From Candidatus Oceanisphaera merdipullorum (GTDB lineage: Bacteria; Pseudomonadota; Gammaproteobacteria; Enterobacterales; Aeromonadaceae), in NCBI GenBank assembly GCA_018883865.1, contig JAHLFI010000078.1, positions 1 through 35,857 on the forward strand: a stretch of DNA of 35,857 bases, read 5' to 3'. The notes under the pieces were generated by a model. That model had not been told where the DNA came from and did not search any database. It was given only the letters and a program-made list of their open reading frames with translations. Below are positions 37 through 33,394 of the stretch, piece after piece. The first letter of the stretch is position 1; every line of letters starts with the position of its first letter. The translations under genes were made by a program, and so were the position numbers.

Positions 37-1302
37 TTATAACGCTGGAGGTGTACCTTCAGCGTTAGAAAGAATGGCATCAATTTGTACCAAAGCATTC
101 ATAGGGATAGCAGAAACGCCAATGGTTGTTCTTGCAGGAAGATCGGCGTTGAAGAAAGTGGTGTAAACGTCGTTTACCGCATCAATATCTTCAATGTTTT
201 TCAGCTGAATATTGATTTTAACCGCGTCGTCCATTACGTGGCCGATACTTTCTACAATCGCTTTAATGTTTGTTAAGCACTGCTTTGCCTGCACTGCTGC
301 ATTACCAGCGACCAGAGCACCGGTTTTAGGGTCTACAGGTAATTGTGCTGAAAGGTGATTGTAATGAGAGAAGGCGACCGTTTGAGTCGACAGCGCACTT
401 TTAGGAGCTGCGTCCGTGTTGTTCGCCTTGATGACGATGCCATGTCGGTCTTCAACCGCTTGTGGGGGAGTGCCATCTCCGTGTGACACAACCGCATCAA
501 TCTGTACCAAGGCATCCATAGGTAAAGCGGATGCTGCAATTACGGTGCGTGCAGGCACATAAGCCACGGCTCTGGCAATGGACGAGTCTGGGAAAAATGT
601 GGTGTACACTTCGTTGACGGCATCAATGTCAGCAAGGTTTTTCAGGAAGATATTTACTTTAACAATATCGTCAAAGGGAACGTCAATGCTTTCTAAAATT
701 GCCTTGATATTCTTCAAACACTGGCCAGTTTGTTCTTTTATCCCACCCGCTACCAGCGCACCTGTTTTTGGTTCAACAGGTAATTGAGCTGAAATATTGT
801 TGTAATGAGAAAAAGCCACTGTATGGGTGGAAGTTGAGCTGGCTGGCGCATTTTCCGTGTTTTTGGCTACTTTTACCAGATCGCAAGGCGCTTGTGGTGT
901 TGTACCTTCGCCGTTTGAAACAAGTGCGTCAACTTGCAGTAAGGCACCATCCAGAGGCAAAGCTGCCACTGCGACAGTGGTGCGTACGGGAAGGTAGTTC
1001 TGGAAAAATGTTGCGTAAACGGCGTTTACAGCGTCAATGTCAGCAATGTTTTTCAAGAAGATATTAATCTTCACAACATCGTTCATCACGTGGTTGATGC
1101 TTTCCACAATAGCTTTAATGTTCTTAAAGCACTGCGTTGCTTGTTCGGTAATATCACCAGCAACAATGGCACCCGTTTTAGGGTCTACAGGTAATTGAGC
1201 TGAAATATTATTGTAATGAGAAAAAGCGACCGTTTGTGTAGATACAGAACAGACTGGTGCATTTTCCGTGTTTATTGAACGCTTAATAATAGTGCCACTC
1301 AT
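37..1302 (-). CDS. Triple-domain RidA (YjgF/YER057c/UK114) family protein
   Basis: 421 residues made of three tandem RidA-like domains, roughly residues 11-131, 148-275 and 295-415. Each repeats the same landmarks: SHYN(N/H)(I/L)SAQLPV(D/E)PKTGA, NIKAI(V/L)ESI, the DIDAVN-VY-TFF helix and a P(A/V)RT motif. The arginine of that motif (Arg107, Arg252, Arg391) matches the substrate carboxylate-binding Arg of RidA imine deaminases. The late acidic residue is Asp (VDAL, IDAV, IDAI) where classical RidA has Glu. Domain 2 carries about eight extra residues before its PARTV motif. Ordinary RidA is about 130 residues and forms a homotrimer with active sites between subunits, so one chain could fold as a pseudo-trimer (inference). 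The ATG follows AGGAG at good spacing. The gene lies downstream of the urease operon but is separated from it by a terminator, so it is probably an independent unit. Family assignment is firm; substrate is unknown. Confidence 0.9.
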   Translation of the reverse strand: MSGTIIKRSINTENAPVCSVSTQTVAFSHYNNISAQLPVDPKTGAIVAGDITEQATQCFKNIKAIVESINHVMNDVVKINIFLKNIADIDAVNAVYATFFQNYLPVRTTVAVAALPLDGALLQVDALVSNGEGTTPQAPCDLVKVAKNTENAPASSTSTHTVAFSHYNNISAQLPVEPKTGALVAGGIKEQTGQCLKNIKAILESIDVPFDDIVKVNIFLKNLADIDAVNEVYTTFFPDSSIARAVAYVPARTVIAASALPMDALVQIDAVVSHGDGTPPQAVEDRHGIVIKANNTDAAPKSALSTQTVAFSHYNHLSAQLPVDPKTGALVAGNAAVQAKQCLTNIKAIVESIGHVMDDAVKINIQLKNIEDIDAVNDVYTTFFNADLPARTTIGVSAIPMNALVQIDAILSNAEGTPPAL

Positions 1303-4081: not shown

Positions 4082-5785
4082 TTAGAACAAGTGATAGCGC
4101 TGTGCTAATGGCAACTCTGCCAGCGGCTCACAGGTCAGCAACTCGCCGTCTGCGCGCACTTCATAGGTTTGCGGATCTACGGTCAGTTCTGGGCAAGCGT
4201 CGTTCAGTTTCATGTCGCTCTTACGCATCTGACGGACATTTTTAACCGCCACCAAGGGGCTCTTCAGACCCAGCCTTTCTTCCAGCCCAGTGTTCATTGC
4301 GGCCTGACTAACAAAAGTCACTCGGGTTGCAGCTGCGGCACGACCATAGGCGCCAAACATACGGCGATAATGTACCGGTTGTGGCGTTGAGATCGAGCCG
4401 TTGGGGTCACCCATGGCTGCGCCGGCAATCATGCCGCCTTTCAGTATGGTCGACGGTTTGACGCCGAAGAATTTCGGTTTCCACAACACCAAATCTGCCA
4501 GTTTGCCGATTTCGATGGAGCCGACTTCATGGCCCACACCGTGGGTAATGGCGGGGTTGATGGTGTATTTGGCGATGTAGCGTTTCACGCGGAAGTTGTC
4601 GGTGCCGCGCTCTTGGTCTTCCGGCAACAGGCCGCGCTGTAGGCGCATTTTGTGCGCGGTTTGCCAGGTGCGGCACACCACTTCACCGATACGACCCATG
4701 GCTTGGGAATCCGAAGAGATCATCGAAATCACCCCCAGGTCGTGCAGTATGTCTTCGGCGGCAATGGTTTCGCGACGGATGCGAGAATCAGCAAAAGCCA
4801 CGTCTTCTGGAATATTCGGATCCAGGTGGTGGCATACCATCAGCATGTCGAGGTGTTCATCAACCGTATTGATGGTGTACGGGCGCGTCGGATTGGTGGA
4901 CGACGGCAATACGTTAGGCAGGCTACAGGCGACGATAATATCGGGCGCGTGACCACCACCGGCACCTTCGGTGTGATAGGTGTGAATACAACGATCTTTG
5001 AAGGCCGCCAGAGTATCTTGCACAAAGCCGGATTCGTTGAGGCTGTCGGCGTGAATGGCGATCTGAATATCGTAACGATCGGCCACATCCAAGGCGTTGC
5101 TGATGGACGCGGGTGCGGCGCCCCAGTCTTCGTGAATTTTTAGGCTCATGGCACCGGCTTTGACCTGTTGCTCCAGTGCTTCTGGCGCGCTGGCGCTGCC
5201 TTTGCCGAGAAACCCGATATTGATCGGTAAATCGTCCACCGCCTGCATCATTTTGCCCAAATGCCACGGGCCTGGGGTGCTGGTGGTCGCCAGAGATCCG
5301 GTAGCTGGACCGGTGCCGCCGCCGATCATAGTGGTGAGGCCGCTCATTAGCGCTTCATCCACTTGCTGCGGGCAAATATAGTGCACGTGGGTATCGACGC
5401 CGCCAGCGGTAAGGATATGACCTTCACCGGCGATGATTTCAGTACCCGGCCCGATGACGATGCTGATATCTGGTTGGGTATCCGGGTTACCGGCTTTGCC
5501 GATGGCCGCGATGCGACCGTTTTTCAGGCCCACATCGGCTTTAACTATGCCCCACCAGTCGATGATGATGGCGTTAGTGATGACAGTGTCCATCACAGCG
5601 TCGTCGCAACGCTGGCTCTGGCCCATGCCATCCCTAATCACTTTGCCGCCACCGAACATTACTTCTTCACCGTAATGGGTATGGTCGTGTTCTATTTCGA
5701 TCCACAATTCGGTATCAGCCAGACGGATCCTGTCACCGGTAGTCGGCCCATACATATCCGCATACGCTTGCCGAGAAATCTTCAT
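4082..5785 (-). CDS. ureC: Urease subunit alpha UreC
   Basis: 567 residues, full length. This is the catalytic subunit that hydrolyses urea to ammonia and carbamate using two nickel ions. All ligands can be read at positions one lower than in the Klebsiella enzyme: His133 and His135 (HVHYI), carbamylated Lys216 (SLKIHEDWG), His245 (AIHAD), His271 ([10 protein letters not shown]) and Asp359 (SSDSQAMGR). The catalytic flap His is His319 (MVCHHLD). The start ATG overlaps the ureB stop (ATGA), so the subunits are translationally coupled. Nothing suggests loss of activity. Confidence 0.98.
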
Positions 5786-17969: not shown

Positions 17970-19226
17970 TTGGATTATTTTAATTATCAAACTGATGGCC
18001 GTCTTTACGGTGAAGCCTGCGATTTAAGCGCGTTAGCCGAGCAATATGGCACTCCGTTATATGTTTACTCTCGCGCCACGCTGGAGCGCCATTGGCATGC
18101 CTTCGACCAAGCCGCCGGTGACTTTCCGCACCTGATTTGCTACGCGGTAAAAGCCAACTCCAACCTAGCGGTACTCAATGTGCTGGCCCGTTTAGGCTCA
18201 GGCTTTGACATCGTCTCTAAAGGCGAACTGTGTCGCGTGCTGGCCGCGGGAGGCGACGCTTCCAAAGTCGTCTTTTCTGGTGTGGGTAAGCGCGTCGATG
18301 AAATCGAGTTTGCGCTCGAGCAAAACATCTTCTGCTTTAACGTGGAATCTATCGCCGAATTAGGCCGTATCAACGAGGTTGCCGGCCGTATGGGCCGTGT
18401 GGCACCGATTTCGATTCGCGTAAATCCAGACATAGACGCCGGTACTCATCCTTATATCTCGACTGGCCTCAAAGAAAATAAATTCGGTATTCCCATCGAA
18501 CAGGCGCAAGACATCTATCGTCAAGCGGCGGAAATGAAAAATCTGGCCATTCACGGTTTAGATTGCCACATTGGCTCCCAATTGACCGAAGTTGCGCCAT
18601 TTTTAGAGGCGGTTGATAAGTTATTGGTGCTGATAGACGCGCTGGCTGCAGATGGTATTCACATCAAGCACTTGGATGTGGGCGGCGGTTTGGGTGTGCG
18701 TTACGACAATGAAACGCCGCCCGAGCCAAAAGACTACGTGCAGCAAATTAAGACCAAACTGCAAGGTCGCCAGTTAACGCTCTTGTTTGAACCCGGCCGC
18801 GCCATCGCCGCTAACGCCGGTGTATTACTGACTCGCGTTGAGCACTTAAAACCCGGAGAAGCGAAAAGCTTCGCCATCGTCGATGCTGCCATGAACGACC
18901 TGATTCGCCCGGCCTTATACAGCGCTTGGCAGGCGATTATTCCGTTGGATAAAACCCTAGTACGTGAATCCGCCATCTACGACATAGTGGGCCCGATTTG
19001 CGAGACCGGTGACTTTATTGGTAAAGACCGTGAACTTTCCATCACCGAAGGCGACTTACTGGCGGTGCGCTCGGCCGGTGCTTATGGCTTCGTGATGGCG
19101 TCTAATTACAATAGTCGCCCAAGAGGCGCTGAGATTATGGTTGATGGCGATACTGCCACTGTGGTGCGTGAGCGTGAACAACTCACCGACTTGTGGCTAG
19201 GTGAGCACCTGTTGCCCGAGGCTTAA
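17970..19226 (+). CDS. lysA: Diaminopimelate decarboxylase LysA
   Basis: 418 residues, PLP-dependent fold-type III enzyme that converts meso-diaminopimelate to L-lysine. PLP-lysine Lys61 is in YAVKANSN. Other motifs: SGFDIVSKGEL, IRVNPDIDAGTHPYISTG-KFGI, HIGSQLTE, LDVGGGLGVRY, EPGRAI, the substrate-binding PICETGDF and the C-terminal GAYGF. The start is TTG with a good AAAGGA 7 bases upstream. It forms an operon with lptM and dapF. LysA acts on the product of DapF, which makes the DapF anomaly next door notable. Confidence 0.97.
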   Translation: MDYFNYQTDGRLYGEACDLSALAEQYGTPLYVYSRATLERHWHAFDQAAGDFPHLICYAVKANSNLAVLNVLARLGSGFDIVSKGELCRVLAAGGDASKVVFSGVGKRVDEIEFALEQNIFCFNVESIAELGRINEVAGRMGRVAPISIRVNPDIDAGTHPYISTGLKENKFGIPIEQAQDIYRQAAEMKNLAIHGLDCHIGSQLTEVAPFLEAVDKLLVLIDALAADGIHIKHLDVGGGLGVRYDNETPPEPKDYVQQIKTKLQGRQLTLLFEPGRAIAANAGVLLTRVEHLKPGEAKSFAIVDAAMNDLIRPALYSAWQAIIPLDKTLVRESAIYDIVGPICETGDFIGKDRELSITEGDLLAVRSAGAYGFVMASNYNSRPRGAEIMVDGDTATVVREREQLTDLWLGEHLLPEA

Positions 19227-19235
19227 GGGGAATTT

Positions 19236-20063
19236 GTGATCCACTTTTCCAAAATGCAGGCCCTCGGCAACGACTTTATGGTGGTCGATGGCATCACGCA
19301 GAAGGTATTTTTTAATCCCGAGGTGATTCGGCAATTAGCCGATCGTCATTTTGGTGTGGGGTTCGATCAGCTGCTGCTGGTTGAGCCGCCCTACGATCCG
19401 GATCTAGACTTTCATTATCGTATTTTTAATGCCGATGGCAGCGAAGTGCAGCAGTGTGGTAATGGCGCTCGTTGCCTAGCCCGTTTCGTGCGTCTCAAAG
19501 GCTTAACCTATAAAGACCGCATTAGCGTCAGCACTCAAAACGGCCATGTGACGCTGACCTTAGAAAAAGATAATCAGGTGACGGTCAACATGGGTATCCC
19601 AGAATTTGACCCCGCCAAGATCCCCTTTAAGGCTCAAAAGGCCGAAAAAACCTATTTGGTGCCCTCGAGCTTACAAACTGTGCTTTGCGGAGTGGTGTCT
19701 GTGGGCAGCCCGCACTGCATCATCGAAGTGGACGACATTAGCTCCGACTTAGTGAAAGCCTTGGGCCCTGAATTGGCAAGCCATGAACGTTTTCCGGAGC
19801 GGGCGACCGTGGGTTTTATGCAAGTGGTGAATGGCCGAGAAATTAAGCTGCTTAGCTACAGTGCGAATGCCGGCAAGGTGTTAGCCAGTGGCAGCAATGC
19901 CTGTGCCGCCGCCGTAATGGGCATGTATTGGGGCAAGCTTAGCGATCGGGTGCAAGTGCACTTTACCCACGGCAGCCTGACCATAGCTTGGCAAGGCCCA
20001 GGCAAGCCTGTGTATATGACAGGCTCGGCTGAGCATGTGTTTGATGGACAAACTAATTTATGA
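19236..20063 (+). CDS. dapF: Diaminopimelate epimerase DapF with altered catalytic loop
   Basis: 275 residues, normal length. DapF interconverts LL- and meso-diaminopimelate with two cysteines as acid and base. The N-terminal half is canonical: [25 protein letters not shown] with the first catalytic Cys74, and [13 protein letters not shown] with the conserved His160. [14 protein letters not shown] is also normal. The second catalytic loop is not. The family reads roughly YERGxGET-ACGSGACAA; here residues 208-225 read [18 protein letters not shown]. So the second catalytic Cys is Ser218, the conserved Glu-Arg is Ser209-Ala210, and the GET Glu is Lys214. The frame is uninterrupted on both sides and the C-terminus ([21 protein letters not shown]) is normal. 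GTG start after AAGGGG. Epimerase activity is doubtful. Confidence 0.9.
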
Positions 20064-20818
20064 GCAAGCAAGTCGGCGCTACCTTAGCCGATCCTTTATT
20101 AGCGGCTGAACCCTTGTTAGCGGTTGAGCTTGAGCTAGCAACTGAATTCGGCTTGAGCGATGCGCATATTGTCGATTACCTTCAAGCCGAGCCCGACTTT
20201 TTTGCTCGTCAACGCGGCTTGTTGGCGCAACTGCGAGTGCCTCATCAAGAGCGCGGCAGTGTGTCTTTCGTGGAAGCCAAGCTTGAGCAGCAAAAATTAC
20301 GTATCTATGAGCTCGAAGATGACATTACCGGGCTGTTGACGGTGGCTGGTGAAAATGAGCGTATTTTTCGGGTGTACATGGATCTCATGCCCCAAGTATT
20401 CGAATGCCTGACGGTGACTGAACTTGAGCTGTGCCTGCGCCGCTGCTTGCAAGAACAATTACGTATTCCTGCGTTGCGCTTGATTGTGGATGCCCGTACT
20501 TTTCCTGCAGCGGCCAGCCCGGCTAGCGAGCAGCTGGAACGCTTGTATCGCGAGCGCATGGCCAGCCAAAGTGAATACCTTGGCCGACTGGGTAAAGAAG
20601 AAAAATTACGTTTATTTCAAGACTCATTGGTGAACTCTTGTGCCTTAATCCGCTTGGGCGCTAAGGGGGAGCTAGGCTTATTGGCTTTTGGCAGTACAGA
20701 TGCGGGCCACTATGGCTCAGATATGGATACCTTTTTGATCAGTCAATTAGCCGATGTGGTGGCGCGTGTCTTACCAAGGCTAGTCGCTGCCGAGTTTGAC
20801 GCTTATGACGGCCGCTGA
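20060..20818 (+). CDS. yigA: DUF484 family protein (YigA-like, GAF-like)
   Basis: 252 residues. It matches the DUF484 family found between dapF and xerC in gammaproteobacteria. Visible features: [29 protein letters not shown], a coiled segment [25 protein letters not shown], and a GAF-like C-terminal half with [46 protein letters not shown]. Its molecular role is unknown. The start ATG overlaps the dapF stop (ATGA), indicating translational coupling, and the end overlaps xerC. Confidence 0.92.
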
Positions 20819-21749
20819 AGCTCAAGATAATACTGACCGCGGGTCGATGGCGCTAACGGTGGCTATCGAGGATTTTCTCGAATATTTGCGCGTTGAGCGA
20901 CAGTTAAGCGTGAATACTCGCACCCATTACGGCCGCAATCTCAAGGCCATGGCAGAGCAGTTAAGCGAACTGTCTTTGCCTTCTTGGTCTGAGCTCACCA
21001 TTAATCATGTGCGCGGCATCGCCACGCGCATGCACAAAGGCGGGTTATCGCCGCGCTCCATCGCCACCAAATTAAGTGCGCTGCGTAGTTTTTGTGACTG
21101 GCTAATCATCCAAGGCCGGCTGCAGGCTAATCCGGCGCGCGGCGTGAGTGCGCCCAAACAAGGCCGACCGTTACCGAAAAACCTCGACGTGGATGAGCTG
21201 CACCAATTAATGGATATCGATGAGTCAGACCCACTGGCGATTCGCGATCGTGCCATCATGGAGTTGATGTATTCTTCAGGCCTGCGCTTGGCGGAATTAG
21301 TCGATTTAAATCTGGGCGATATTCAGTTTGATGAGCGCCAAGTACGCGTTATTGGTAAAGGCAATAAAGAGCGAATTCTACCTGTGGGCCGTATGGCGCT
21401 GGAATGGCTAGAAAAATGGCTAAAGGTGCGCGATATGCTGGCCGGCGGCGAACAGTTTGCCTTGTTTGTTAGCCAGCGCCAGCGGCGCATCAGCCATCGC
21501 AGCGTGCAGCTGCGCATGGCCGAGTGGGGCGCTAAGCAGTCATTATCCAGTCATATTCACCCGCACAAATTACGTCATTCATTCGCCACCCATATGTTGG
21601 AGTCCAGCGGTGACTTGCGTGCGGTACAAGAGCTTCTCGGCCACGCGGATCTTGCCACCACCCAGATCTATACCCATCTGGATTTTCAACATTTAGCCAA
21701 AGCCTACGACAACGCCCACCCTAGGGCTAAGCGCGATAAAAATGAGTAA
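20805..21749 (+). CDS. xerC: Site-specific tyrosine recombinase XerC
   Basis: 314 residues. With XerD it resolves chromosome dimers at dif. The N-terminal SAM-like core-binding domain covers about 17-105 and the catalytic domain the rest. All catalytic residues are readable: Arg161 (SSGLRLAEL), Lys185 (GKGNKER), His254 and Arg257 ([12 protein letters not shown]), His280 ([10 protein letters not shown]) and nucleophile Tyr289 (IYTHLD). I chose the ATG at 20805, overlapping the DUF484 end by 14 bases. A later ATG (20847) is possible and would be nearer the usual XerC length; neither has a strong ribosome-binding site. Confidence 0.96.
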
Positions 21750-25601: not shown

Positions 25602-25799
25602 CAGTGATTAACTGCTGAAGTCTAAATAAGGAGCAGTCGATAAATTCATATTTAGCGCTTGCAGCACACTGCCGTCATTAATTGAATGTTTAGCTTTAAA
25701 TCAATCTGCGTGGCAGGATTAGAAAAAGTTTACTTTTTATCACACAGCCTCGTCTTTACGGCTGCGTTTAGTGTAAGACACAGTCGATGGAGTGTGGAA

Positions 25800-28700
25800 A
25801 TGTCGTATGGACGCGGAATAAAAATGGGTGCGCTTTTACTCGCCGTGCTGGGCTTCACTTGGCCTGGTATCAGTGGTGCGGCAGAGTTAGTGCCCTCTCA
25901 ACGCTTCGTGATGGTTGAAGATGTAGACTTGCCTGGTGGCGATATTAGCTCGCAGTTTGATACCACTTTAGCTGCCTGCCAAAAAGCCTGCATCAGCAAC
26001 ACGGCCTGCGCCGCCATTACCTTTAATAAGCGTAACGGCTCCTGTTTTTTAAAGGCCGAGTTTAGTGAAACGCAACCCTATGCCGATGCACTCTCCGCTT
26101 ATCTACTAAAATCCGCGCCCGGTGCGACCGCCGTGGCGCAAACTCGAGCCAGCGAGTTGAGCTTCTTGCGCGGCACTGATCTTGCTCAGGCTTATGAATC
26201 GGCTATCGGCCTTGCCGTGCGCCACCCTGCTCGCGAAGGCTCGGCTGCCGACTATGCAGTGCTGGCCGAGAAGGAAGAAGCCAGCGGCAATATGCTGCGG
26301 GCCAGTGAACGGCTAGGTGTCGCCTTAAATATGACAGATGCGCCCTCAGATTGGGCGGAATATGGTCGATTATTACGGCGGGCGGCGGCGCGGGATGACA
26401 GCAAAAAAAGTGAATTGCAGCAGCGTGCGCTGCTGGCCACCATTAATGGCTATTTACGTGCCGATACCCCAGATTTACGCCATCGCCTGTTAGTGCAACT
26501 GGCGGACATTTTAGAAGACAGCGATCGGGGCCTAGAAATGGTACCGGCACTGCGTCTTGCCCAGCAAATAGAAAAGCGCACCAGTACCCAAAGCGCCCTA
26601 GATGAAGCCATTGGCAAATATGGTTTTAGAGTGACAGAGCACGACGTGCAATCCGACAGCGCACAGCCGCGTATTTGTGCGCAGTTTTCTGATGACTTAG
26701 CCAAGACAGACGTAGCATTCGATAAGTTTGTACAGCGGGATGCGAAGGGCCTAACGGTGGAAAAAGTAGGCGCGCAAATGCTGTGCGTAGAAGGCGTAAG
26801 CCACGGCGCCCGTTATAAGCTGACTTTTAGAGCCGGCATTCCGGCCGCCGATGGCCAAACTACCACTAAGCCGGTGACCATTAACGCCTATGTGCGCGAT
26901 CGCAGCCCCACTTTGCGTTTTTCAGGTCGCGCCTATGTGTTGCCCAAAGTGGGTAAAGATGCCGCGCTGCCCATTGAGGCGGTGAACACGGCCAAGGCCG
27001 AACTCACGCTATTTAAAGTCACGGATCGCAATATCTTGCGTGCCATACAAAGCGAATATTTTGGCGAGCCCATGTCTTATTGGCGTGAAGAGGATTTTTC
27101 TAGCCAAGTGGGCGCCGAAATTTGGCAAGGCCATGCCGATCTTGCCATGGAGGTGAACCGCGATATGACCACGCGCTTGCCGATGGCGGATGCCTTGGCG
27201 GGCCAAGGCGCGGGTATTTTTGTATTACGCGCCAGCATACCCGGCAAAGAAAGCTATGACGTGCCTCCCGCATGGCAGTGGTTTGTGGTTTCGGATCTGG
27301 GTATCAGTACCTTAAGCGGCACCGATGGTTTGCATGTAGTCGTACGCAGCTTGGGCACGGCCAAGGCCAAGTCTAAGGTGGCGGTCGAGCTGCTGAGCCG
27401 TAGTAATGAGGTGTTAGGCACGGCCACCACAGACAGCCAAGGTTATGCCAGTTTTCCTGCGGCACTGACCCGTGGCGTGGGTGCGCTGGCGCCAGCCATG
27501 GTGGTTGCTAAAGAGGGAGCAGCTAAAGAAGGCGAAGCGGACATGGCCTTCTTGTCGCTCACAGATCCCGAATTTGACCTGTCGGATCGGGGTGTCGAAG
27601 GGCGTGAGCCTGCGCCGCCGATTGATGTGTTTTTAACCACGGATCGTGGCGCCTATCGTGCCGGTGAAACGGTTTATGCCACGGCACTCAGCCGAGACGC
27701 CAATGCCAAGGCGATTGATAGCTTGCCGCTGACTGCCATTGTTAAGCGCCCAGACGGCGTGGAATATTCCCGCGTGGTAGCAGACGATGCCGGCAGTGGC
27801 GGCCATGTATTTGCCTTACCCGTGGCCGGTAGTGCCCCGCGCGGCGTGTGGCGACTAGAGATAAAGGCGGATCTGGATGCACCTGCATTAGCCACGCAAA
27901 CCTTTTTAGTGGAAGACTTTTTACCGGAGCGCATCGATTTTACCCTCAGTCTGCCAACGACCGCAGTGCGCCTAGGCGATAGGCCTACGCTGACGTTGGA
28001 TGCCAAATATTTGTTTGGTGCCCTAGGTGCAGATTTGAGTGTGGAAGGATCCGTTACCTTGCGTGCTAGCCAAGGGCTGAAGGCGTACCCCGGCTATCAG
28101 TTTGGCTTGGTGGATGAGCCGTTCCAAACCCAGATGGAAAGCTTTAGCGGCACGCGTACCGATGCCAAAGGGCGTGCCGAGATAAACTTAACCCTGCCCG
28201 ATGTGGCCGATCCCTTGCGGCCATTAGAAATGACGGTAGTGGCGCGCGTAGCTGAAGGCTCAGGTCGACCGGTGGAGCGCCACCTGACGCGCGCAGTGCA
28301 ACCCAGTGCGGCCATAATAGGTGTGAAACCCTTATTCGATGGGGTGGTAAAAGAAGGCACTGATGCGCGCTTCTCACTGCTGGCCGTCGGGCCTGATGAA
28401 ACGGCCACGGCTATGTCAGTTACCCCCATGGCGGTCATCTGGGAATTATCACGCATTAATACCCACTATCAGTGGTATCAGGAAGACGGTAACTGGCGTT
28501 GGGAGCCGGTGAGCAGCCGTGAGCAAATTAGCAGCGGACGTGCCGACCTAAAAGACGCGGTTGAGATAGCCGCCGCCGTTAGTTGGGGTGAATACGAGCT
28601 GGTAGTGCGCCAAGCGGACGGGGGCGATGCAGCTACCTCCAGTCGTTTTTATGCGGGCTGGTATGCACCGGCAGACGTTACCTCAACCCCGGATACGCTG

Positions 28701-31340
28701 GAGTTATCCTTGGATAAATCTGCCTATAAACCCGGCGAGGTGGCGCAGTTACGACTGGTGCCCAGAGCCGCGGGTAAGGCGCTGGTTTATGTATTATCCA
28801 ACCGCTTAGTCGCCATGAAAGTGGTGGACGTCAAGGCTGGCGAAAACACCATCAAACTGGATGTGACCGACGAATGGGGCACGGGCGTTTATGTGTCGGC
28901 GACTGTGCTCAGGCCCATGGATGTGGCGGCTGGGCGCAATCCGGCCCGCGCCTTAGGCTTGGCTCATGCCGGCGTGGCACCGGGTAACAAGGCGCTGACG
29001 GCTACCGTAGACGTGGCGGCCGAAGTGGCGCCTCGTGGGCCTATGGACGTGGCAATTAAGGTCGAAGGCGTCGCTCGTGGTGAAACCGCATACGTCACTA
29101 TTGCCGCCGTGGATGTCGGCATTTTAAACCTCACCGCCTTTACATCTCCCGATCCCAAAGGTCATTACTTTGGCCAGCGCAAGTTAGGGGTGGGGATGCG
29201 TGACCTATATGGGCGTTTAATCGATGGACTAAGTGGCGCGGTCGGCACTGTGCGCTCCGGCGGCGATGCGGCGGGCCAAGCCCGCATGCAAACCCCACCG
29301 CCGACCGAAGAATTAGTGGCCTACTTTACCGGCCCAGTGACGGTTGATAAGGACGGTTACGCCCGTACTAGCTTCGAACTGCCGTCTTTTAACGGCACGG
29401 TTAAGATAATGGCGGTGGTGTGGTCGAAAACCGGTGTCGGTCAAGCCAACGCCGAGGTGCTGGTGCGTGATCCGGTCGTGGTTACCGCTTCCGTGCCGCG
29501 CTTTATGGCGCCAGGGGATGAAAGTCGCATGCTGCTGGAAGTGATCCATGCTACTGGCCCTGCAGGCAAAATGGGGTTAAGCGTCTCGACCAAAGGCTCG
29601 ACAGCAGGGGCGGCCATTGGCTTGACCTTAGGCGAAGTGCCTTCGAGCTTTGAGTTGGCCAAAGGCGGTAAAGCTAAATTTTCCGTGCCCATTACGGCCA
29701 CGGCCGAAGGGTTACAAAGCGTGACGGTTAACTTAACCACGCCCGACGGCAAGTCGTTAACCAAACAGCTGCTGATACCGGTGCAAAGTGGTGACCCAGA
29801 AGTGGCGCGCACCCAACGGTTAGAGCTGGCCGCAGGCGATAGTTTCACGCTGGATCAGTCGGCCTTTAGCGACTTTATCGTTGGCTCTGGCTTGGCCACG
29901 CTGGCGGTCGGACCCATAGCGCGCCTAGATGTGCCCGGCTTGCTGGCGGCACTGGATCGTTATCCTTACGGTTGCACCGAGCAAGTGACGTCGCAAACGC
30001 TGCCCTTGTTGTACTTCGATGACGTGGCCAAGACCATGCAGCTGAAGGGCGCGGATAATCTCGCGCAGCGTATTAAGGGTGGCGTGAGTGAAGTGCTGAC
30101 CAATCAAAGCGCAGAAGGCGGTTTTGGCTTGTGGGGACCTAGCTCAGGTGATTTTTGGTTGGATGCTTATGTGACCGACTTCTTGAGTCGTGCCAAGGCG
30201 CAAGGCCACGAGGTGCCGGATCTGGCGTTTCGCTCGGCGCTCGATAATTTACGCAATCGCGTCAACTACACCGCCGATTTTGACAACGGCGGCGAGGCGC
30301 TGGCCTATGCGCTTATGGTGCTAGCCCGTGAAGGCGCGGCCACCATAGGCGACTTGCGCTACTACGCCGATGTGAAAGGCGATGCCTTTGCCACGCCTAT
30401 GGCACAGGCGCAATTGGGAGCGGCGTTGGCGAGCTATGGCGATCAAAAACGCGCCGATGCCATGTTTACTAAGGCAGGTAAGCGAATTAAGGGGTATCAG
30501 TCACTGGGTGAGGGACAGACTTATCGCACCGATTACGGCAGTCGTCGCCGCGATGTGGCCGGCGTCTTGGCCTTGGCGGCAGAAGCGAAATCAAATGCGC
30601 TGGATACCGAAGCGCTGGCGCTCGCCTTGCTTGCCAATGGCAATACCTTATCGACCCAAGAGGCCAGCTGGACCTTGCTGGCCGCTCACGCCTTAATTGG
30701 GCAACTGGGCAGCGACGGTGTTACCTTAAACGGCAGCCCAGTCGACGGGCCTTTGGTGCGCGTGTTAAAAGCAGGCGCAGACTTGTCCGAAGAGAGCAAG
30801 GCGCTAACGGTCAGCAATGGCTCGACACGCCCAAGCACACTCACGCTCACCACGTATGGGGTGCCTAAAGTACCGGGACCCGCCACAGGCAATGGTTATG
30901 CAATTAACCGACAATACTTCACCATGACGGGTGAGCCGATTAACTTAGATGGCGGCGTGAAAGCCGGCGATCGCATGGTCGTTATCTTGGAAATTGAACC
31001 CTTTGGTAAGGCAGAATCGCGCTTAATCATGGCGGACCCACTGCCTGCCGGATTTGAGATTGATAACCCTAACTTGTTGCGCAGTGGAGAGCTACGCGGT
31101 GGCGAAGCAGGCGGGCTGAATTGGCTGGACGTGCAAGAAGATACCGAGCATACCGAATTCCGCCAAGACCGCTTTATTGCCCAAGTGGATTGGTCTGGCA
31201 ACAAGACACTGCGCCTAGCCTATGTGGTGCGCGCCGTGTCACCGGGTAGCTTCCATCATCCCGCGGCGTCAGTTGAAGACATGTATCGACCCAATTATCG
31301 CGCGCAAACGGCCGCTGGCCGCGTGACCATAGCCGAGTGA
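25800..31340 (+). CDS. Large bacterial alpha-2-macroglobulin (thioester type) with N-terminal PAN/Apple-like module
   Basis: 1846 residues, longer than E. coli YfhM (about 1650). A signal peptide (about 1-28, MGALLLAVLGFTWPGISGAA) lacks a lipobox Cys, so the protein is probably soluble in the periplasm. Residues about 34-95 form a PAN/Apple-like module with Cys60, Cys64, Cys70 and Cys82 (AACQKAC, CAAITFN, GSCFLKA). A long run of beta-sandwich macroglobulin domains follows. The thioester motif is YGCTEQ with Cys1392 and Gln1395, inside the alpha/alpha toroid domain (QSAEGGFGLWG). Such proteins covalently trap attacking proteases. I chose the ATG at 25800, preceded by GGAG at 7 bases; the frame opens 38 codons earlier without a signal peptide. 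It overlaps pbpC by one base. Confidence 0.93.
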   Translation: MSYGRGIKMGALLLAVLGFTWPGISGAAELVPSQRFVMVEDVDLPGGDISSQFDTTLAACQKACISNTACAAITFNKRNGSCFLKAEFSETQPYADALSAYLLKSAPGATAVAQTRASELSFLRGTDLAQAYESAIGLAVRHPAREGSAADYAVLAEKEEASGNMLRASERLGVALNMTDAPSDWAEYGRLLRRAAARDDSKKSELQQRALLATINGYLRADTPDLRHRLLVQLADILEDSDRGLEMVPALRLAQQIEKRTSTQSALDEAIGKYGFRVTEHDVQSDSAQPRICAQFSDDLAKTDVAFDKFVQRDAKGLTVEKVGAQMLCVEGVSHGARYKLTFRAGIPAADGQTTTKPVTINAYVRDRSPTLRFSGRAYVLPKVGKDAALPIEAVNTAKAELTLFKVTDRNILRAIQSEYFGEPMSYWREEDFSSQVGAEIWQGHADLAMEVNRDMTTRLPMADALAGQGAGIFVLRASIPGKESYDVPPAWQWFVVSDLGISTLSGTDGLHVVVRSLGTAKAKSKVAVELLSRSNEVLGTATTDSQGYASFPAALTRGVGALAPAMVVAKEGAAKEGEADMAFLSLTDPEFDLSDRGVEGREPAPPIDVFLTTDRGAYRAGETVYATALSRDANAKAIDSLPLTAIVKRPDGVEYSRVVADDAGSGGHVFALPVAGSAPRGVWRLEIKADLDAPALATQTFLVEDFLPERIDFTLSLPTTAVRLGDRPTLTLDAKYLFGALGADLSVEGSVTLRASQGLKAYPGYQFGLVDEPFQTQMESFSGTRTDAKGRAEINLTLPDVADPLRPLEMTVVARVAEGSGRPVERHLTRAVQPSAAIIGVKPLFDGVVKEGTDARFSLLAVGPDETATAMSVTPMAVIWELSRINTHYQWYQEDGNWRWEPVSSREQISSGRADLKDAVEIAAAVSWGEYELVVRQADGGDAATSSRFYAGWYAPADVTSTPDTLELSLDKSAYKPGEVAQLRLVPRAAGKALVYVLSNRLVAMKVVDVKAGENTIKLDVTDEWGTGVYVSATVLRPMDVAAGRNPARALGLAHAGVAPGNKALTATVDVAAEVAPRGPMDVAIKVEGVARGETAYVTIAAVDVGILNLTAFTSPDPKGHYFGQRKLGVGMRDLYGRLIDGLSGAVGTVRSGGDAAGQARMQTPPPTEELVAYFTGPVTVDKDGYARTSFELPSFNGTVKIMAVVWSKTGVGQANAEVLVRDPVVVTASVPRFMAPGDESRMLLEVIHATGPAGKMGLSVSTKGSTAGAAIGLTLGEVPSSFELAKGGKAKFSVPITATAEGLQSVTVNLTTPDGKSLTKQLLIPVQSGDPEVARTQRLELAAGDSFTLDQSAFSDFIVGSGLATLAVGPIARLDVPGLLAALDRYPYGCTEQVTSQTLPLLYFDDVAKTMQLKGADNLAQRIKGGVSEVLTNQSAEGGFGLWGPSSGDFWLDAYVTDFLSRAKAQGHEVPDLAFRSALDNLRNRVNYTADFDNGGEALAYALMVLAREGAATIGDLRYYADVKGDAFATPMAQAQLGAALASYGDQKRADAMFTKAGKRIKGYQSLGEGQTYRTDYGSRRRDVAGVLALAAEAKSNALDTEALALALLANGNTLSTQEASWTLLAAHALIGQLGSDGVTLNGSPVDGPLVRVLKAGADLSEESKALTVSNGSTRPSTLTLTTYGVPKVPGPATGNGYAINRQYFTMTGEPINLDGGVKAGDRMVVILEIEPFGKAESRLIMADPLPAGFEIDNPNLLRSGELRGGEAGGLNWLDVQEDTEHTEFRQDRFIAQVDWSGNKTLRLAYVVRAVSPGSFHHPAASVEDMYRPNYRAQTAAGRVTIAE

Positions 31341-33394
31341 TGATACGGGTTTGGCGATTATCGGCTTTAGCTTCCCCGCTGACCTTGGTGCTGGTGCTCT
31401 GGTTTGCCGTCGAGGCATTTGCTGCTTGGGTAGCAGCCACTGAGTTGCCCAACTTAAGCGTGGCAACCTCGGTTGAAGTATTGGCCCGAGATGGCCGCTT
31501 GCTGCGTGCTTATACGGTGGCCGATGGTCGCTGGCGCATGGCAGTATCGCCTGATGCCGTAGACCCTGACTTCACCACCATGCTGATCGCCTATGAAGAT
31601 AAGCGATTTTACAGTCATGGCGGCGTTGATCTGACCGCCATACTGCGGGCACTCGTGCAAGCGGCACGCCAGCGGCGCTTGGTGTCGGGCGGCTCCACTT
31701 TGACCATGCAAGTGGCGCGCTTATTAGAAGACAGCGGCACCGGCCAACTCAAGGGCAAGCTGCGCCAAGCTCGGGTGGCACTGGCGCTGGAGCGCCGCTT
31801 AACTAAGGCGCAGATTTTACAGCTGTATTATCAGGTGGCGCCCTATGGCGGCAACCTTGAAGGTGTGCGCGCCGCGTCTTTGGCGTATTTTGGCAAGGAG
31901 CCGCAGCGCTTAACCACAGCCCAAGCCGCACTCTTGGTCGCTTTGCCCCAATCGCCAGAAGGCCGTCGGCCAGACAGATTTGCCAAAGCGGCCGCGCTTG
32001 CTCGAGAAAAAGTGCTGGCGCAGGCGGTCATGGTGAGGGTGATTCAGGCCGAGCAAGCGCACGCGGCCAGCGGCGAGGCTATTCCTGCCCGCCGCCACGC
32101 GTTTCCTGCACTGGCCCCGCACCTAGCCGACCGCATAGTGGCGGCGGCCCCTAGCATGCAACGGCACCACACCACGCTAGATGCTGCCTTACAAGTTCGC
32201 CTCCAAGAATTAGCCACCCAAGCGGTGGCCGCCCATGGCGACCGGCTGCAGGTGGCAATAGTGGTGGCTGAGCATAAAAGCGGTGCAGTGTTGGCCTCGG
32301 TCGGCTCGGCGGCGTATCGGGCCGATGCCCGCTTAGGCTTTGTCGATATGACTCGCGCCGTGCGCAGCCCAGGCTCTACCTTAAAGCCCTTAGTTTATGG
32401 CTTGGCGTTTGATGAAGGCTTGGCCCACCCCGAAACCTTAATCGAAGACAGAGCCATGGACTTTGGGGGTTATGCCCCACAAAACTTCGATAAAATCTTT
32501 CGTGGCGAAGTGCGTATTCGTGATGCGCTGCAGCTGTCGCTCAATCTGCCAGTGGTGGCACTTACAGATGCCTTGGGGCCGGCCAAGTTAATGGCAGGAT
32601 TACGTCGCGCCGGCGTAACGGCACGCGTGCCGGGCGGTAAACCTGGCCTCGCCGTGGCACTGGGCGGCGTGGGCGTGAGCTTAGAAGACATGGTGGGCCT
32701 GTACGCTACGCTAGCGCGCGGCGGCGTGGCGAGACCTTTGCATTTTACCCAGCAAGCCGTGGATAAAGATGCGCCAGGGTTACGGGTCATGTCAGCGGTG
32801 GCGGCGTGGCAAGTGGGTGATATTTTGTCGGGCGTGGCGCCACCCATAGGTGCACCGGTCAACCGCTTGGCCTATAAGACCGGCACCAGCTATGGTCACA
32901 GAGATGCTTGGGCCATCGGCTTCGATGGTCGTCATGTGATCGGCGTGTGGATGGGCCGAGCCGACGGCACGCCGGTGCCAGGGGTGTTTGGCGCAGACTT
33001 AGCAGCACCTCTGTTGTTCCAAGCCTTCGCGCGGGTGAAGCGCAAGTTAGACTCGTTACCCTTGCCGCCGCCCAGCACGCTTATGGTGGCCAATGCCAGC
33101 TTGCCACAACCACTGCGCAAGTTTAGGCCACGGCACGCGGCCTTTACCGCCGCCGATGCTCCTAAGGTGGATTTTCCGCCCGATGGTGCCGAGGTCGAGC
33201 TGATGGCTGAGGGCATATTATTACGCGTGCGCGGCGGCGTTGGCCCCTTTACTTGGTTAGCCGATGGCAAGCCGGTGGTGGTCAGCGCCCGCGGGCGAGA
33301 CCAGCTAGTCAAGATGCTGGGTCCGGGATTTGTGGAACTATCGGTCATCGACAGCAGGGGCCAATCGGCACAGGCCAAAGTAAGATTGCGCTAG
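31340..33394 (+). CDS. pbpC: Penicillin-binding protein 1C (PbpC)
   Basis: 684 residues, bifunctional peptidoglycan synthase. One N-terminal membrane anchor covers about 9-33. The glycosyltransferase (GT51) domain has YEDKRFYSHGG with catalytic Glu86, and GGSTLTMQVARLLE. The transpeptidase domain has SxxK (Ser346-Lys349 in SPGSTLKP), SLN and KTG (513-515). A C-terminal beta domain of the PBP1C type (about 590-684) ends in VELSVIDSRGQSAQAKV. The ATG shares its A with the macroglobulin TGA stop; a GTG one codon earlier is also in frame. The macroglobulin-PbpC pairing is widely conserved and suggests repair of the wall after envelope breach. A strong terminator follows. Confidence 0.96.
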   Translation: MIRVWRLSALASPLTLVLVLWFAVEAFAAWVAATELPNLSVATSVEVLARDGRLLRAYTVADGRWRMAVSPDAVDPDFTTMLIAYEDKRFYSHGGVDLTAILRALVQAARQRRLVSGGSTLTMQVARLLEDSGTGQLKGKLRQARVALALERRLTKAQILQLYYQVAPYGGNLEGVRAASLAYFGKEPQRLTTAQAALLVALPQSPEGRRPDRFAKAAALAREKVLAQAVMVRVIQAEQAHAASGEAIPARRHAFPALAPHLADRIVAAAPSMQRHHTTLDAALQVRLQELATQAVAAHGDRLQVAIVVAEHKSGAVLASVGSAAYRADARLGFVDMTRAVRSPGSTLKPLVYGLAFDEGLAHPETLIEDRAMDFGGYAPQNFDKIFRGEVRIRDALQLSLNLPVVALTDALGPAKLMAGLRRAGVTARVPGGKPGLAVALGGVGVSLEDMVGLYATLARGGVARPLHFTQQAVDKDAPGLRVMSAVAAWQVGDILSGVAPPIGAPVNRLAYKTGTSYGHRDAWAIGFDGRHVIGVWMGRADGTPVPGVFGADLAAPLLFQAFARVKRKLDSLPLPPPSTLMVANASLPQPLRKFRPRHAAFTAADAPKVDFPPDGAEVELMAEGILLRVRGGVGPFTWLADGKPVVVSARGRDQLVKMLGPGFVELSVIDSRGQSAQAKVRLR

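Follow-up and report, generated by a model that had tools for sequence, protein, structure and literature searches.

A probably inactive diaminopimelate epimerase kept under purifying selection in an Oceanisphaera clade that carries a dehydrogenase bypass

The stretch of DNA analyzed here (the window: 35,857 nucleotides of contig JAHLFI010000078.1 from Candidatus Oceanisphaera merdipullorum) raises the question of why a gene for diaminopimelate (DAP) epimerase should persist with an intact reading frame while residues that would make its product an enzyme have gone. The gene, dapF (19236..20063, + strand), has a GTG start and encodes 275 amino acids. With 275.6 bits against TIGR00652 (cut-off, 114.65 bits), the product is a member of the DapF family, and it is 63-64% identical to the Escherichia coli DapF structures. 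Its former catalytic loop (E. coli positions 207 to 222; 19857..19904, +; residue numbers of the window protein are those of E. coli plus one) carries Ser-Ala in place of Glu208-Arg209 and Ser in place of Cys217. When the ORF and codons were rechecked, the loop proved to be as the initial annotation had described it, with the codon for Tyr208 (window numbering) at 19857-19859 and an AGT codon for Ser218 (window numbering) at 19887-19889. The first catalytic Cys (73 in E. coli, 74 in the window; 19455..19457, +), which is lost in the relative L020, and His160 (E. coli His159) were again found unaltered. Two changes in the substrate pocket had not been on that annotation's list, namely Asn157 to Ser (19707..19709, +) and Asn190 to Thr (19806..19808, +), both in the E. 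coli numbering that is used hereafter.

Scored against the active-site and substrate-binding residues of DapF, five of the 13 conserved active-site residues are altered in the window protein (Asn157Ser, Asn190Thr, Glu208Ser, Arg209Ala, and Cys217Ser), including four of the seven that bind substrate (Asn11, Gln44, Asn64, Asn157, Asn190, Glu208, and Arg209). One study names Gln44, Asn11, and Glu208, together with the equivalents of Gly74, Asn75, Gly218, and Thr219, as DapF active-site residues (PMC12039745). An active epimerase requires two catalytic cysteines, at 73 and 217, and the second of these is Ser here. At 119 sites conserved in at least 97% of 105 live DapFs, a set that can include near-duplicates of one species, the window protein departs at 18; the 16 canonical relatives from its genus, themselves within the 105, depart at none (15 of them) or at one (the remaining relative). 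Judged by these residues, the window DapF is almost certainly dead as an epimerase, and the loss of Cys217, Glu208, Arg209, Asn157, and Asn190 bears out the inactivity that had been suspected from the loop. The fold is predicted to be kept: the model has a mean pLDDT of 89.8 (about 70 in the loop block) and a TM score of 0.95-0.96 to E. coli DapF, which is weak for the loop because the input alignment consisted mostly of live relatives, and it scores 0.96 against DapF from the complex with RppH (6d13) and 0.93 against the engineered C217S DapF 2q9j. The second dapF that the initial annotation had proposed to seek was found neither by a protein search of the genome at E values up to 10 nor with PF01678, whose two matches are two halves of this same gene, so that the window copy is the only one found.

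The surroundings of the gene are those of an ordinary dapF. An intact lysA, encoding meso-DAP decarboxylase, lies at 17970..19226 (+; TIGR01048, 537.8 bits), and the end of dapF overlaps a gene at 20060..20818 (+) that we take to be of the DUF484 type (NF008203, 133 bits, below the cut-off of 254 bits for that model), followed by xerC at 20796..21749 (+; TIGR02224, 365.7 bits). The order lysA-dapF-DUF484-xerC is the usual arrangement and is complete in the window. The first 450 bases of dapF (19236-19685) are 88-96% alike per 150-base block between L001 and L002, compared with 78-88% in blocks of lysA and 59-81% in blocks of the DUF484-type gene, and dS between the same two is 0.47 in dapF and 1.06 in lysA. 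Local recombination or codon constraint may underlie this high 5' likeness; the silent changes along dapF, sought as an explanation of the few 5' differences, gave no pattern consistent across pairs. Elsewhere in the window, positions 5353-5638 (+) match the 5' ureB small RNA family (RF02514, 117 bits) antisense to a urease alpha gene, which may reflect only the conserved coding sequence of the other strand. Positions 37-1302 (-) encode a single chain of 421 residues that contains three stretches of Rid type. At 25686-33394 (+), a frame of 1884 residues with no NCBIfam match at 1e-20 lies directly 5' of a gene for penicillin-binding protein 1C; the two presumably form the usual macroglobulin-pbpC pair.

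Named relatives place the genome with Oceanisphaera and Zobellella in the Aeromonadaceae. A dapF is present in all 23 genomes of the genus, and the second Cys is lost in six of them: the window genome (G000), G021, G013, G002, G018, and G011, with Ser in five and His in one. No member of the six has Glu208 and only G011 retains Arg209, whereas Cys73 persists in five, the exception being G018, which has Ser at both Cys positions. Sixteen of the 23 dapFs are canonical, and that of G014 is frameshifted. These six genomes group as a single clade (SH-aLRT, 98), and since all six show the loss and two of them are single-contig assemblies, the ruined loop is no sequencing error or chance event. No second DapF turned up in any of the six, either by protein search or with PF01678, for which nothing further scored above 12.5 bits. 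In addition, Oceanisphaera pacifica DM8 (L030) has a DapF that is the same as that of G011 in the alignment. Within the clade the loops differ: one variant is common to two genomes and others read FHCHGEEVLASG, HGQSGNEVLASG, and HGRGTGETRSHG, which makes five different loops, counted up to position 218, among six genomes. The pocket residues Asn157 and Asn190 are altered in one and two members, respectively. As far as these alignments tell, the loop is a released site with no new fixed motif. Nor has Ser217 been fixed as a replacement catalytic residue, given that the position is His in one relative and that Ser occupies both Cys positions in another. G011, with His217 and a retained Arg209, may have lost its Cys separately. 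A survey of close relatives for a shared Ser loop, which the initial annotation had called for, therefore gave a divided answer: the ruin is common to the whole clade; its wording is not. The frameshift in G014 (L023/L024) falls right at the catalytic loop, in a genome that lacks ddh and has dapD and dapE, and may be a draft error or a recent loss.

It had been supposed that a cell with such a DapF would need another epimerase. Another source of meso-DAP is indeed needed, but the one that was found bypasses epimerization. Among the 23 genomes, meso-DAP dehydrogenase (Ddh; TIGR01921) is above cut-off in exactly the six with a ruined loop and in none of the other 17. The Ddh of the window genome (G000:C3:48812-49786) scores 474 bits against a cut-off of 180.6 and matches the solved meso-DAP D-dehydrogenase 3wyb over its full length with 481 bits. 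In all six genomes ddh is flanked by the same two neighbors, which we take to be mioC-like and S1-domain genes, and the other five clade copies are 81-88% identical to that of the window genome, compared with 60-62% for five copies from another family; the common neighbors and this pattern of identity fit a single gain of ddh in the ancestor of the clade. Ddh converts tetrahydrodipicolinate to meso-DAP in one step, with no epimerase.

The distribution of the succinylase route is the mirror image. The 17 genomes without ddh all have matches above cut-off to both dapE (TIGR01246) and dapD (TIGR03536), and the six with it have neither above its model cut-off; the E. coli-type dapD model TIGR00965 has no match above cut-off in any of the 23. 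A match of 98-111 bits to the dapE model, below its cut-off of 361.8 bits, occurs in all 23 genomes and is for that reason another gene. DapD-like proteins with 192-194 bits, under the 375-bit cut-off of TIGR00965, were seen in two clade members, G013 and G021 (L113 and L114). In two live relatives examined, dapD sits between two set genes, presumably dbpA and glnD; between the same two genes of G013, G002, G011, and G000, no trace of dapD was found (gap of 73-517 bases; best E value, 6.4). The assembly of the window genome is 93% complete, and the absence of dapD and dapE agrees in four members listed as 100% complete (G002, G011, G013, and G021). Ddh is thus very likely the source of meso-DAP in the clade, to judge from these gene inventories, and LL-DAP, the substrate of DapF, is most likely without a source among the genes searched. 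The correspondence of ddh, dapD, dapE, and dapF within the genus counts as one event, as the six genomes are a single clade.

If the gene has nothing to epimerize, its sequence might be expected to decay, and the initial annotation had considered a drifting gene. The frames argue otherwise, being intact in six of six clade genomes, as does dN/dS, which is far below 1. In the three unsaturated dead pairs it is 0.136 (0.084-0.199), 0.142 (0.085-0.213), and 0.118 (0.042-0.242), with all bootstrap upper limits below 0.25; of all 15 dead Oceanisphaera pairs, the other 12 are near saturation, with 0.065-0.174 where defined. The divergence of G000, G021, and G013 postdates the loss by parsimony, because the Ser loop is shared with G002. 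Eight live pairs from the genus, picked by the analyst, have values of 0.03-0.12, so that the dead pairs lie above most of them and constraint is partly relaxed. In neutral simulations with 2000 runs at each level of change, the number still free of stops was 23 at 0.235 changes per site, 0 at 0.7, and 419 at 0.07; the first and last of these levels are half the silent distances of L001-L002 and L002-L003, respectively. Low dN/dS together with the scarcity of stop-free neutral runs at the two higher levels points to selection on the amino acid sequence: the dead DapF is under purifying selection, though less strictly than most of its live relatives. The frameshifted dapF of G014 was left out of the dN/dS values, the site counts, and the count of state changes.

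The same combination recurs outside the genus. Ddh (E values up to 1e-50) was found in 24 of 394 genomes of the order, 20 of them in one family (f3, which we guess to be Succinivibrionaceae), one in another (G047, family f26), and three in the clade described above, of which an even draw had placed only three of the six genomes in this set. A DapF-family match occurs in all 21 ddh genomes outside the genus and is above cut-off in 20; that of G047, a genome with Ddh, has the canonical Cys pair. At the native place beside lysA, nine of the 20 f3 genomes have a dapF with the canonical Cys pair, ten have a full-length gene with a ruined site (L183, L186-L193, and L217), and one is truncated (L185). 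The calls rest on different residues: in L183, L186, and L187, where Cys217, Glu208, and Arg209 are still present, the verdict is based on Gly in place of Cys73 and His in place of Gln44; L217 retains Cys73; and L193, in which both Cys still align, is counted as dead because nine of its 13 active-site residues are gone. A second DapF, of foreign type and with canonical Cys, is present in nine of the 11 genomes with a ruined or truncated copy (nine of the ten in which the ruined copy is full length), and none of the nine canonical genomes has a second DapF match. In f3, where all 20 genomes studied have Ddh, a dead DapF is predicted by the presence of a foreign DapF (9/9) and not by Ddh alone. 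The foreign-type genes (L174-L177, L179-L182, and L184) sit outside the native locus, and the nine genomes that harbor them have Ddh as well.

Selection is visible in f3 as well, in pairs picked by the analyst (seven dead, six live, and five foreign). Of the four closest dead pairs, L186-L187 has a dN/dS of 0.063, and the three among L188-L190, which have C73G and C217N in common, give 0.081, 0.071, and 0.073; L183 against L186 and L187 gives 0.105 and 0.119; and the most eroded pair gives 0.33. Five live pairs fall at 0.07-0.19 and the five foreign pairs at 0.05-0.11. On a tree of LysA and RppH from 43 genomes, from which G047 was left out, the fewest state changes are six; this is a quick tree with 15 of 40 inner branches starred and several long rows. 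Loss of catalysis with retention of the protein recurs in a second family of the order.

What the dead proteins have kept may indicate what they are kept for. Of the 119 conserved sites, 23 are retained by every one of the 16 dead DapFs (L185, as truncated, L194, as the same gene as L184, and L030, whose DapF does not differ from L022 in the alignment, were left out of the site counts). Seven of the 23 lie in E. coli positions 49-58 (EPPYDPxxDF; 19383..19412, +), where they are every conserved site, and such clustering arose in 31 of 20,000 shuffles. Four of the seven are not common to foreign DapFs, one of which shows an alignment gap there. This suggests that the segment is a group-specific surface, as opposed to part of the common fold, and marks it as a candidate partner-binding patch, which may be a contact for RppH. 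Active-site residues are significantly over-represented among the changed conserved sites in only three of the 16 dead DapFs (Fisher P < 0.05), a weak enrichment. Retention of universal and gamma-specific sites showed no single direction across lineages (0.80/0.91 in oc, 0.88/0.81 in g44, 0.77/0.69 in g60, 0.53/0.57 in g37, and 0.42/0.54 in g50), and the partner is not settled by this comparison.

RppH is the RNA pyrophosphohydrolase that starts 5'-end-dependent mRNA decay. In E. coli, RppH is bound by DapF (Kd, about 5 nM) and stimulated by it. Replacement of both catalytic Cys by Ala (C73A/C217A) abolishes the making of meso-DAP but leaves the binding and stimulation of RppH in vitro, and the overproduced mutant exerts its effect in cells by way of RppH (PMC4227774). 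A second report describes a dimerization mutant of DapF that is without activity and likewise still binds and stimulates RppH (PMC7144940). The 2014 E. coli work proposed that the main role of DapF might be stimulation of RppH and not the making of meso-DAP (PMC4227774). An rppH gene is present in all 23 genomes of the genus and in the 21 ddh genomes outside it, and the copy in the window genome encodes a protein with 71% identity to E. coli RppH. Because every genome searched has the gene, whether its DapF is live or dead, rppH does not tell the two groups apart.

We consider it probable that the dead DapF has a selected noncatalytic role, and, by analogy with E. coli, we lean toward stimulation of RppH as that role. 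In the explanation that we favor overall, with moderate confidence, the ancestor of the six-species Oceanisphaera clade would have gained ddh; since Ddh makes meso-DAP in one step, the succinylase route would have become needless, and dapD and dapE would have been lost. The catalytic residues of DapF would have been lost after the bypass, and the protein would have been kept as a pseudoenzyme for a task that needs its fold and surface and no active site, most likely the binding and stimulation of RppH. Against this explanation count G210 of f3, whose sole dapF is truncated although rppH is present, the dN/dS of 0.33 in the most eroded f3 pair, the partly relaxed constraint in the clade, and the weak enrichment of active-site residues among the changed sites.

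A noncatalytic role other than RppH, whether with another protein partner or as a stable scaffold, has a small but appreciable probability: what has been shown is purifying selection and not the partner, and the seven retained sites at 49-58 would suit any partner, but RppH, bound so tightly in E. coli, is the only noncatalytic partner of DapF found in the literature consulted, as far as its accessible text goes. It is improbable that the gene is instead a slowly decaying relic whose frame is kept only since a stop would hurt translation of the DUF484-type gene and xerC downstream. The overlap with the next gene, a dN/dS higher than in most live pairs, the drifting loop, and the f3 family, with L191-L193 eroded to merely 35-47% identity with the window DapF and L185 truncated, would all fit such a relic. 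Translational coupling, however, preserves the frame and not the amino acids, and dead pairs in three separate groups show dN/dS values of 0.06-0.14, the three species with C73G and C217N keeping theirs at 0.07-0.08; moreover, dapD and dapE have gone from the same clade in which dapF stays.

Some dehydratases of the proline-racemase fold have Ser at the second Cys position and keep the first Cys, and the presence of Cys73 in five and Ser217 in five of the six clade members would fit a new enzyme with another substrate. Against this altered reaction, which the initial annotation had raised and which we hold to be very unlikely, stands the variation of the loop from species to species: five different loops in six genomes, one member with Ser at both Cys positions and another with His217, and pocket Asn157 changed in one and Asn190 in two, with no conserved new active site visible. 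That the window protein still epimerizes DAP has a negligible probability despite its intact predicted fold. Cys217, Glu208, and Arg209 are conserved in at least 97% of the 105 live DapFs, and neither dapD nor dapE is above cut-off to provide LL-DAP. E. coli DapF without its two Cys converts no LL-DAP (PMC4227774), and a Cys-to-Ser change is a common means of hampering catalysis for crystallography (PMC12039745).

If the reading in which the dead DapF is kept as an RppH activator is true, natural selection acts on the DapF-RppH link far outside E. coli, and these lineages are natural separation-of-function experiments, in which the epimerase is lost and the protein is kept. Their dead DapFs would let the noncatalytic surface be read and make the 2014 proposal directly testable. 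The wider idea that DapF is, in these gammaproteobacteria, an mRNA-decay factor first and a wall enzyme second, kept as a dedicated RppH activator once superfluous and several times independently, could equally well prove right or wrong. An annotated dapF is in any case not the same as a working epimerase, as the window protein passes the cut-off of the NCBI equivalog model (TIGR00652).

In the literature searched, which left most subscription papers outside its reach and was in part accessible only as partial text, no earlier report of a catalytically dead DapF kept in nature appeared among the matches listed; no paper on Oceanisphaera and diaminopimelate was found there either, and a search for DAP epimerase as a pseudoenzyme gave a single match that is, by its abstract, unrelated. 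Pseudoenzymes, pathway replacement, and the catalysis-free RppH role of DapF in E. coli are already known; the natural, recurrent loss of DapF catalysis with the protein kept is new. Compared with E. coli DapF (TIGR00652 and PF01678; 4ijz and 6d13), the window protein is alike in length, fold, gene order, sequence, first Cys, His159, and the dimer residue R36, but it is without the second Cys, Glu208, Arg209, Asn157, and Asn190, and the feeder genes dapD and dapE are absent. The Haemophilus influenzae C217S protein (2q9j) has the same Cys-to-Ser change and keeps the DapF fold; there the change is single and engineered, whereas here the whole loop has drifted. The E. coli laboratory mutant C73A/C217A (PMC4227774) is likewise a DapF devoid of catalysis whose host has RppH, whereas the loss seen here is natural and fixed in several lineages. 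Finally, the route by which Ddh gives meso-DAP directly (TIGR01921 and 3wyb matches) is the dehydrogenase variant of the DAP pathway, which differs here from its usual form in occurring in a gammaproteobacterial clade where the replacement left dapF behind.
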